Below, in pieces: positions 38,665 to 41,298 of a stretch of 64,000 nt of DNA. The stretch lies in the NCBI RefSeq assembly GCF_006438725.1, contig NZ_RCZD01000001.1, positions 496,001 through 560,000 of the forward strand, in the 5' to 3' direction. The position numbers and the translations under genes were made by a program. The notes beneath the pieces are model-generated. The model made no database searches, was not told the origin of the DNA, and was given only the letters and a program-made list of their open reading frames with translations. How positions within the stretch are numbered: the stretch's first letter is position 1; every line of letters begins with the position of its first letter. Origin of the DNA: Ewingella americana. Lineage in GTDB: Bacteria > Pseudomonadota > Gammaproteobacteria > Enterobacterales > Enterobacteriaceae.

Positions 38665-39414
38665 TTAGTGATCGAAGAATTCACGTACACGCTGCAAATC
38701 TTCGGGTGTATCGACACCGACAGAAGGAATGGCTTTAGCAACCGCAACGTGAATTTTTTCACCGTACCAGAGTACGCGCAGTTGCTCGAGCAGTTCAATA
38801 TTTTCCAGCTGACTCGGCGCCCAGGAGACATAACGCCTGACGAAACCGGCACGATAAGCGTAAATACCAATATGACGTAGGAAAGTGTCGCCCACGCTCT
38901 CTTTCGATTTGGCAAAACGCTCCCGTTCCCAGGGAATGGCCGCACGCGAGAAATAAAGGGCGTAGCCATTGATGTCCATCACCACTTTCACCGCATTCGG
39001 ATTGAACGCTTCTTCAGCGCTGCTAATCGGCACGGCTAGCGTAGCCATACCTGCTTCACAAGACGCCAAATTTTCTGCGACCTGACGGATAATCAGCGGA
39101 GGCACCAGTGGCTCATCGCCCTGTACGTTCACGATGATATCTTCATCAGTAAAACCGTAGTGCTCGATGACCTCCGCCAGACGTTCAGTACCGGACTGAT
39201 GATCGGCGCGGGTCATACATGCTTCGCCCCCCGCCGCCTGTACAGCGCTGAATACATCAGGATGGTCCGTCGCCACAATGACGCGATCGGCACCCGATTC
39301 CAGAGCGCGCTCCATTACATGGATCACCATCGGCTTTCCGTTGATATCAGCCAAAGGCTTGCCGGGCAAACGGCTGGAGGCAAAGCGAGCGGGAATGATA
39401 ACAATGAAACTCAT
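38665..39414 (-). CDS. kdsB: CMP-KDO synthetase KdsB
   Basis: This 249-residue enzyme joins CTP and KDO to CMP-KDO, the activated sugar for the lipopolysaccharide inner core. The nucleotide-binding N-terminus is [15 protein letters not shown], and QGDEPLVPP and PWERERFA are conserved metal and substrate segments. It overlaps ycaR by four bases (ATGA), so the two are translated together. The neighbours lpxK and msbA are also in lipid A and LPS biogenesis. Confidence 0.97.
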
Positions 39415-39593
39415 GGATGCGTCTCGTCAGCTGATAGCGCGCGGGCTTCTGTTTCTAACAACACCGGAATGCCGTCGCGAACCGGGAAAGCGAGCCCGTC
39501 CACTTTGCACACTAACTCTTGCGATTCTTTGTTGAAGTAGAGCTTACCGGTACAGACAGGACAAGCGACTATTTCGAGTAAACGATGATCCAT
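39411..39593 (-). CDS. ycaR: Trm112-like zinc protein YcaR
   Basis: This 60-residue protein has the Trm112/UPF0434 fold. It starts [18 protein letters not shown], giving one CPxC pair (CPVC) and a later Cys in [19 protein letters not shown]. It begins at the ATG at 39593; the open frame runs 61 codons further upstream, but those are not conserved. It is coupled to kdsB by a four-base overlap. The function in bacteria is not established; the fold is known to support methyltransferases in eukaryotes. Confidence 0.93.
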
Positions 39594-39770: not shown

Positions 39771-39799
39771 TTGCAAACAGGTTTATAGCGGCGTAGAAT
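39771..39799 (+). promoter_or_regulatory. Sigma70 promoter of the small-RNA/small-ORF locus
   Basis: TTGCAA (39771-39776), a 17-base spacer and TAGAAT (39794-39799) form a near-consensus promoter. Transcription should begin near 39805-39807. It drives the AzuC-like unit and is divergent from ycaR. Confidence 0.7.
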
Positions 39800-39805
39800 T
39801 TTTAA

Positions 39806-39821
39806 TGTGACCTGCATCACA
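39806..39821 (+). promoter_or_regulatory. CRP site over the transcription start
   Basis: TGTGA-CCTGCA-TCACA has both CRP half-sites perfect with the standard six-base spacing. Its centre (39813.5) lies about +7 to +9 relative to the predicted start, a position from which bound CRP would block initiation or escape. This predicts repression when cAMP is high. Confidence 0.65.
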
Positions 39822-39848
39822 AAAACAAATCAAATTATGAGAGTAAAA

Positions 39849-39899
39849 ATGAAACTGATCAACAAAATCATCTCAATGTTCGCGAACTTCAGTAACTAA
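39849..39899 (+). CDS. 16-residue AzuC-like small protein
   Basis: The frame encodes MKLINKIISMFANFSN. Its ATG lies six bases after GAGAG. The first 14 residues align without gaps to E. coli AzuC as I recall it (MKLRKILKSMFNNY), sharing MKL, SMF and an Asn, with an aromatic residue at position 14. Lys and Asn on one side and Ile, Leu, Met and Phe on the other would form an amphipathic helix, so membrane or protein association is likely. E. coli AzuC has 28 residues, so this form lacks the second half. The frame lies inside the predicted small RNA and overlaps no other gene. A regulatory-only role of the RNA is the main alternative. Confidence 0.5.
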   Translation: MKLINKIISMFANFSN

Positions 39900-39929
39900 T
39901 ACTGGCTTCACCTGCATTCATCGTGAAAG

Positions 39930-39959
39930 AACGGCCACTGAATGTGGCCGTTTTGTTTT
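39930..39959 (+). terminator. Rho-independent terminator of the AzuC-like unit
   Basis: Perfect nine-base arms AACGGCCAC and GTGGCCGTT enclose a five-base loop and are followed by TTGTTTT. The T-run lies only on the plus strand, so the signal serves the small transcript and not ycaQ. Confidence 0.85.
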
Positions 39960-39962
39960 ACA

Positions 39963-41201
39963 TTATTTCACGTCTTGAAGTAGAGACCAGCCCTTTCCCC
40001 AGCAAGCGTGCAGCGTTTCAGGAAGTTTACCTGTCCTGATTTCCTGTGCTCCGTGCCACAGTGCGCAGCGGCTAAACGCATCGGTCAGGTCTTTGACTCG
40101 ACGTGGACTGATTTTCAGACCCGCTTCCAGGTGTAACGCTTTAACTTCAAAAATTTTTTCCTTGCGATGAATCTTGGCATCTACTCGACCAATCAATTCA
40201 CCACGCTGTAAAATCGGCAAAGTAAAATAGCCAAACTGACGCTTTGCTTCTGGGGTATAGCACTCCAGACGGTAGTCAAAATTAAACAACGTCAGTGCAC
40301 GCTTGCGGTCCCAGACAACTGGATCGAAAGGTGAAAGCAGGGTCGTCACCGTGGAACTAATTCGTCCATCTAGCGCCTGCTGTAACAAAGGGTACTGCGC
40401 CTGATGCACATAACACTCACCCTCGATCCCCTCGACATTCACCCTCGTGATTTCACCACGTTGCAGTAAATCCTTGACTACATCAGCGGTTTTTACGCGC
40501 TTTAAGCGGTAATAATCGGCCAGCCATTCAGCCTTAAAAAAACCGAGGCTTTGAGCCGAACGACGCAACATCTGAAATTCCGCATCGGCCTGAGATAATG
40601 CCTGCGTTGCATCGTTCCAGTCAGGCAATACCCTTTCTGCCAGATCATAAACACGATGGAAATTACGTCTCTCTACCACCATCAATTTTCCTGCGGTAAA
40701 CAGCGTTTCGAGATGCTTTTTATGCGGCTTCCAATCCCACCAGCCACTGGTCGAGCGTTTTTCGGCATTGAAATCTGCAGAACGTACCGGGCCATTATCC
40801 GCTATATGACGAATCAGAATAGCAATGTCTTCCTGATGGGTATCAAACCATGCCTGGGAGTATTTCCAGCCCATATTTTCTGGCTGCAGCATCCGGTGTC
40901 GTAGTAACCGATAATCGTCGATTGGAATGAAACAGGCTTCATGTGCCCAATACTCGAAGAGTTTTCCTGCAGCCAGTGCCTCCTCCAACCATTCGGGAGG
41001 ATAATGCCCCAACCGGCTGAACAGCACCAGATAAGGGCTGCGAGCCACCACGCTGATGGTGTCAATTTGCAGCAGCGCCATCGTACTAATGGCCGAGATC
41101 AGATCTTCGCGAGCAGGTTTACGCTTTAGAGGGTGTTGTAACTGTTGTGCAGCAAGGTGCAACGTTCGGGCGGCAGAAAGAGGTATAACTGGGTGAGACA
41201 T
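39963..41201 (-). CDS. ycaQ: YcaQ (AlkX) DNA interstrand-crosslink glycosylase
   Basis: This 412-residue winged-helix protein of the HTH_42 family includes E. coli YcaQ (AlkX) and the actinobacterial AlkZ. YcaQ opens DNA interstrand crosslinks and removes N7-alkylguanine. The catalytic motif of YcaQ-type enzymes, Gln-x-Asp, is visible as LLQIDTISVV near residue 45. WDWKPHKKHLE, LSPFDPVVWDRKRA and the acidic EYWAHEACFIP are also conserved. The start is the ATG at 41201 (MSHPVIPLSAARTL); a TTG seven codons earlier is open but not conserved. It is convergent with the small-RNA locus. Confidence 0.93.
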   Translation of the reverse strand: MSHPVIPLSAARTLHLAAQQLQHPLKRKPAREDLISAISTMALLQIDTISVVARSPYLVLFSRLGHYPPEWLEEALAAGKLFEYWAHEACFIPIDDYRLLRHRMLQPENMGWKYSQAWFDTHQEDIAILIRHIADNGPVRSADFNAEKRSTSGWWDWKPHKKHLETLFTAGKLMVVERRNFHRVYDLAERVLPDWNDATQALSQADAEFQMLRRSAQSLGFFKAEWLADYYRLKRVKTADVVKDLLQRGEITRVNVEGIEGECYVHQAQYPLLQQALDGRISSTVTTLLSPFDPVVWDRKRALTLFNFDYRLECYTPEAKRQFGYFTLPILQRGELIGRVDAKIHRKEKIFEVKALHLEAGLKISPRRVKDLTDAFSRCALWHGAQEIRTGKLPETLHACWGKGWSLLQDVK

Positions 41202-41298
41202 ATCGGTATCCGTTAATGACAATCATCTTACAGATACCGATAGCATATTTTGCCCAGAGCGTAAATTTTACACGCTGAGATCAGAGGTAAATCCAGAC

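Follow-up and report, generated by a model that had tools for sequence, protein, structure and literature searches.

Ysr206 of Yersinia was classed by Nuss et al. as a trans-encoded RNA and gave a Northern signal only when crp was mutated; CRP binding to it was cAMP-dependent and cooperative, with more than one predicted site (PMC4376681). The main text of that paper makes no mention of a small protein, sORF, peptide, coding potential or translation. E. coli AzuC makes the glycerol-3-phosphate dehydrogenase GlpD more active (PMC10746267, PMC8672173), and for AzuCR both GlpD binding and base-pairing with cadA and galE are described (PMC8672173, PMC10746267, PMC9977716). VcdRP of Vibrio cholerae is a CRP-repressed small RNA with a 29-residue protein that acts on carbon metabolism, the small protein binding GltA and the RNA base-pairing through a four-cytosine motif (PMC8672173). 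Spot 42 is described as another CRP-repressed RNA (PMC8672173).

We report the anatomy, conserved operator, protein-level selection and Ysr206 homology of a unit from the window (the whole 64 kb stretch of DNA analyzed), which judged by its sequence is best read as a CRP-repressed small-protein mRNA of the AzuCR kind. It lies between ycaR (39411..39593, minus strand), a divergent neighbor with kdsB next, and ycaQ (39963..41222, minus strand), a convergent one. By comparison with its relatives, the interval codes for a conserved protein of 16 residues. All parts are on the plus strand. The sigma-70-type promoter TTGCAA-N17-TAGAAT, with GGCGTAGAAT around the -10, was found by inspection and promoter scan at 39771..39799; its -35 TTGCAA (39771-39776) is separated by a 17 nt spacer from the -10 TAGAAT (39794-39799). 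The putative transcription start is placed at 39805, the base to which the Rfam Ysr206 model aligns its first position, and over it lies the CRP operator TGTGACCTGCATCACA (39806..39821; motif scan and conservation). A Shine-Dalgarno-like GAGAG (39839..39843) precedes the 16-codon ORF MKLINKIISMFANFSN, which with its stop occupies 39849..39899 (ATG at 39849, stop ending at 39899; profile match and selection). After a short 3′ UTR (39900..39927) with CACCTGCATTCATCGTGAA, a weakly supported stretch common to 6 of 39 class I loci, comes an intrinsic terminator (39928..39959; terminator scan and folding) that opposes the convergent end of ycaQ.

The preliminary description of this DNA had claimed the TTGCAA-N17-TAGAAT promoter, the perfect TGTGA-N6-TCACA site and, between ycaR and ycaQ, an ATG with GAGAG upstream opening a 16-residue ORF, and all are present. 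Its terminator with T-rich tail is also there, but where it counted nine pairs the terminator scan gives 11, six of them G-C, in a stem-loop at 39928-39954. When 800 bases were scanned, promoter-like sites numbered 4 against 1.1 (sd 1.0) expected and terminator-like sites 1 against 0.9 expected. Such matches alone are nearly uninformative, so the case for the unit rests on comparison with relatives. The CRP site is the sole exact TGTGA-N6-TCACA in the window, with 0.12 expected and an exact site occurring in 12 of 100 shuffles of the 64 kb; it scores 10/10 and begins 43 nt upstream of the ATG. The palindrome at 39806-39821 is also the inferred RNA 5′ end, where it folds as a 5-bp hairpin that could protect the RNA.

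A search against Rfam gave a single weak match, Ysr206 (RF02852), with an E value of 0.0059 on 4001 bases and 0.00051 on 351 bases; the window scores 22.9 bits against this model, below its gathering score of 124. Ysr206 itself, in a genome of genus g40, scores 222 bits (locus L031, 1501-1809, minus strand) and begins one base before the CRP site. The Rfam consensus opens with C-UGUGA..UCACA and continues to AGGAGC, then AUG AAA CUC AUU AAU AAA AUU AUC GCA AUG UUC. Behind the AGGAGC the consensus holds a 23-codon ORF (MKLINKIIAMFEKMNVSFGTING), although Ysr206 was described as a trans-encoded RNA. The two units share a CRP site on the transcript start, a Shine-Dalgarno sequence, an ORF of the same peptide family and an aligned start. 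They differ in that Ysr206 has a 23-residue ORF, a long 3′ part (the model spans 312 positions) and a second CRP site 55-58 bp upstream (4/4 ychJ loci), and adjoins ychJ rather than lying between ycaR and ycaQ. From these alignments Ysr206 is the direct relative of the window unit, AzuC being more distant, and the published trans-encoded RNA becomes a probable mRNA. Since Ysr206 is detected only without CRP and is bound by CRP, what is shown for transcription and CRP repression concerns a relative and not the window's organism. Three genomes of Ysr206's genus also have a 16-residue copy beside ycaR (L060, L162, L164).

We searched for the family more widely. A DNA search matched 34 of 198 genomes of the window's taxonomic family. 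A peptide profile, A1, was then made of 21 peptides, mostly from the DNA search and Ysr206 model search matches, and at E<=0.01 it matches 119 of 392 genomes of that family, in 46 of 154 genera; two of the matches, in genomes of 0.3 and 0.5 Mb, are regarded as spurious, leaving 117. The window ORF matches A1 with E 3.5e-6 and 30.4 bits, partly by construction as its peptide is one of the 21 rows. A sample of the order gave 10 positives among 295 genomes, all ten within the window's family, whereas VcdRP is from Vibrio cholerae. Five genomes carry two copies by the profile search, four of genus g40 and one other (G337). When three 23-residue members were scanned against Pfam and NCBIfam no model matched, the 16-residue form being too short to scan. 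Searches of the literature on Ysr206, on Yersinia small proteins and on CRP-repressed small proteins, in main texts, turned up no report of the peptide family.

We collected 115 distinct loci in which a start was identified, merging those identical over 120 nt upstream, the ORF and 100 nt downstream, so that counts are of distinct sequences and not of genomes. They fall into five classes by chromosomal place. Class I (39 loci) lies beside ycaR and/or ycaQ (ycaR seen in 36, ycaQ in 24) and class II (48 loci) downstream of co-directional atpC, with co-directional glmU next in 25 where seen. Class III (20 loci) is beside adeP, with lpxP seen in 10, class IV (4 loci) beside ychJ, and class V (4 loci) at other places. 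The ychJ-side copy is Ysr206, and its two CRP sites fit the more than one site predicted in PMC4376681. Among the matches listed in a scan of named genomes, of which many others, from unrelated phyla, are probably due to chance, carriers include Rahnella rivi, Hafnia alvei, Rouxiella silvae and Yersinia ruckeri (genus g40) for class I, Citrobacter gillenii and Mangrovibacter phragmitis for class II, and Prodigiosinella and Edaphovirga for class III. We rejected two candidate places in E. coli K-12: the ycaQ-ycaR gap there is 51 bp, and the atpC-glmU spacer, read by eye on the forward strand, is without a family ORF and has no CRP site of at least 8/10. Since the peptide profile supplied most of the loci, these are biased to conserved peptides; free of that bias is only a sample selected by YcaR alone, in which 36 of 40 relatives had ycaR, 30 loci were taken and 29 were usable. 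The contig of the one excluded (L306, from genome G377 of the window's genus) stops 245 bases before ycaR and does not reach the spot.

Of the 115 loci, 114 have a CRP site of at least 8/10 at 30-60 nt upstream of the ATG; in class I the site reaches at least 9/10 in 38 of the 39, and L170 alone had no CRP site found. A second CRP site 52-60 bp further upstream is present in 72 of the 76 loci of classes II-V and in 0/39 of class I. The consensus promoter of class I has a GG-GTA core similar to that of the window and that of class II has GGCGTAGACT. Since a TTG and the GG-GTA core before the CRP site are common to both, the whole unit from promoter to ORF, and not the ORF alone, appears homologous between classes I and II. 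A terminator, by the rule of a candidate within 220 nt, was found in 28/39, 35/48, 16/20, 1/4 and 3/4 loci of classes I to V, against 0 in one mononucleotide shuffle of each locus in every class (0/39 in class I), and 11 of the 39 class I loci have none by this rule.

We consider it highly probable that the unit is a one-gene, CRP-repressed transcription unit for a conserved 16-residue protein that is made with glucose. When cAMP-CRP is high, on a poor carbon source, CRP on the start site (about +2 to +17) would block RNA polymerase; if the start of the Rfam Ysr206 model is the mapped start, the transcript would begin near 39805, with CRP indeed on +2 to +17. Glucose would lower cAMP, CRP would leave, and an RNA of ~150 nt would be made from about 39805 to the terminator near 39959. 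The peptide would then be translated from this RNA; repression and translation in this organism are what we infer. Most likely the peptide would bind the inner membrane or a membrane-associated central-carbon enzyme and tune it while sugar is plentiful, its molecular target being a guess by analogy with AzuC and GlpD. The window peptide has a net charge of +2 and a hydrophobic moment of 0.69 against a shuffled mean of 0.39, a fraction of 0.009 of shuffles being at least as high. The amphipathic signal is weaker in two 23-residue relatives (0.031 and 0.051) and not significant in AzuC (0.127). If helical, the peptide is amphipathic, which would suit binding to a membrane or an enzyme surface.

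The preliminary description went further and proposed a dual-function RNA like AzuCR, which would encode the peptide and also base-pair with mRNAs through its 3′ part; VcdRP is another RNA of this kind. The CRP-repressed design is common to AzuCR and VcdRP (PMC8672173), the window RNA folds strongly (z -3.4, in a structure that includes the terminator and 5′ hairpin), a CACCTGC[A/T]-N-TCATCGTGAA stretch recurs in the 3′ UTR of 6 of the 39 class I loci, and the 312 positions of the Ysr206 model leave a long 3′ part. However, only 28 nt separate stop and terminator stem in the window, and the recurring stretch is absent in L005 and L138 of the same genus. Ten close loci have a mean pairwise 3′ UTR identity of 0.61, against 0.72 for third codon positions and 0.58 for the 5′ UTR. 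Across the 39 class I loci no conserved 3′ block was seen besides the terminator. With a 3′ UTR so short and weakly conserved, the base-pairing function is unsupported, and we regard this second role as rather unlikely.

In the reading frame, class I has a pN/pS of 0.18, while its five other frames range over 0.43-1.84; the 6 distinct ORFs from the ycaR-chosen sample give 0.21, with 0.51-1.63 in the other frames. Column shuffling gave 0/300 as low in each of two sets, these 6 and 10 ORFs drawn at random from the 31 of class I. The 31 distinct class I ORFs have a dN/dS of 0.063; in class II it is 0.118 for the 23-residue form (28 ORFs) and 0.201 for the 16-residue form (12 ORFs), and in class III 0.337 (15 ORFs); the window's genus, with 5 usable genomes, gives 0.108. 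Equal synonymous and non-synonymous rates had been set beforehand as the refutation of the ORF; the class I pN/pS and dN/dS are instead well below equality. These values bear on the reading of the unit as a purely non-coding CRP-repressed sRNA with an incidental ORF, which would agree with the description of Ysr206 as a trans-encoded RNA in a paper whose main text is silent on small proteins (PMC4376681). Such an RNA is very unlikely given synonymous divergence that is specific to the frame (none of the 300 column shuffles being as low), dN/dS between 0.06 and 0.34 in four groups, and a reading frame kept at several chromosomal places.

A short ORF followed by a terminator could also be a leader peptide or attenuator acting in cis on a neighboring gene, and class II, downstream of co-directional atpC and with co-directional glmU next in 25 of its 48 loci, has an arrangement of that sort; but the unit also adjoins unrelated genes elsewhere, and we find this explanation highly improbable. 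At ycaR-ycaQ it was rejected by neighbor orientation, since divergent ycaR and convergent ycaQ leave no co-directional gene downstream. In the ycaR-chosen sample the ORF is present in 7 of the 29 usable loci, all 7 with a CRP site of at least 9/10, and the other 22 have neither ORF nor CRP site, with flanks complete in all 29. Of these 22, 11 are in other families of the order and some others are in reduced genomes; in the window's genus both features are present in 5/5 usable genomes. That the ORF arose by chance behind a real CRP site with another role has next to no credibility, for while promoter and terminator scan matches within the window say little, CRP site and ORF are jointly present or jointly absent in 29/29 ycaR loci, and this co-occurrence together with the class I pN/pS led us to reject chance as the source of either.

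The CRP-repressed small-protein mRNA remains to be compared with AzuC, to which the preliminary description had likened it as a related, shorter locus. E. coli AzuC does start MKLRKILKSMFNNY, as stated there, and the repression of azuC by CRP agrees with the literature (PMC8672173). The kinship with a CRP-repressed small-protein RNA stands, but identity with AzuC does not: the AzuC model NF033642 had 0 matches at E<=0.05 in the window's genus (6 genomes, among them that of the window), and by that test the locus is not AzuC. AzuCR and the window unit share CRP repression, predicted for the latter, and a small basic peptide starting MK with MF.N; unlike the window peptide, AzuC has 28 residues and the neighbors yecJ, yecR and ftnB. 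Spot 42, which has a small protein, and VcdRP are likened to the window by description and not by sequence, the former as a CRP-repressed RNA and the latter in its design of a CRP-repressed RNA with a small protein.

Profiles were compared for 9 AzuC, 75 first-ORF and 14 second-ORF distinct peptides, with shuffles that keep the first column fixed (L102 and L187, missed by the pattern, are outside the AzuC profile). AzuC against all first-ORF peptides scores 17.8, which 0/200 column shuffles reach (best 15.3), with an hhalign probability of only 48%; against class I peptides alone, unshuffled, the score is 16.0 and the probability 41%. Against the second ORF of class III these are 20.5 and 69%, the best shuffle reaching 13.2. 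A kinship of first and second ORFs was rejected as not shown, with 4/200 shuffles reaching the score and an hhalign probability of 7%.

Promoter layout was also compared. In azuC loci a CRP site is followed after 6 nt by TTGA (-35) in 21/22, and a second CRP site lies 30 bp downstream of the first in 22/22; the same 6-nt CRP-TTGA spacing occurs in 59 of the 72 loci of classes II-V with a distal site. The window lacks this paired layout, its sole site being over the start. By the N-terminal profile and the promoter layout of the other classes AzuC is a probable distant relative; common origin is rated probable only, because class I is without the distal CRP site and the alignments are very short. 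Mutual exclusion with AzuC is unsupported: among the 117 family-positive (the two small-genome matches dropped) and 119 AzuC-positive genomes (E<1e-4), 57 have both, 60 the peptide family only and 62 AzuC only. By our assignment of genomes to classes, those of class I tend to lack AzuC, which is found in 8/45.

The adeP branch would encode two small proteins, an MKLLNKII peptide and a second one of 27-28 residues with a C-terminal part similar to that of AzuC, so that AzuC resembles one of the pair in its N-terminal part and the other in its C-terminal part. We suggest, tentatively and as no better than a possibility, that an ancestral CRP-repressed small-protein cassette was re-sited among enterobacterial positions, that AzuCR is derived from it, and that Ysr206 and perhaps other CRP-repressed sRNAs are overlooked mRNAs. 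If true, such overlooked Ysr206-like small-protein mRNAs would act on metabolism in the sugar phase. The loci described here add proteins of 16-24 residues that form a widespread and probably CRP-repressed family. Its members are sited at several places and retain one operator design over the start, which provides many natural replicates bearing on a CRP-repressed micro-protein role with glucose.

A second small ORF of the M-x-IVRKINQILKALGKTYRGVNPHAIFR type follows the first in 20/20 class III loci (e.g., L007, L008, L012, L014, L020, L040, L072). RNA-level constraint on it is unsupported, with pS of 0.33 against 0.25 for the first ORF (15/20 loci). Six further loci (L178, L179, L180, L182, L183, L186) stand outside the counts for the 115, the finder having identified no start. 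By eye, the ycaR copies L178, L179, L180 and L182 start in frame at a GTG (VIKRLHKIIALFANFSH or ...YSQ) and each have a CRP-like site, and the ATG ORF of L183, MKKRLHKFIAMFSNMSF, is accompanied by CRP-like sites. L186, on the ycaR side, keeps a readable frame but lacks a start codon and looks like a decaying copy. The class V copy of L130 (about 2128-2199), from translations read by eye, lies between a psiE-like gene and pgi, a glycolysis gene.
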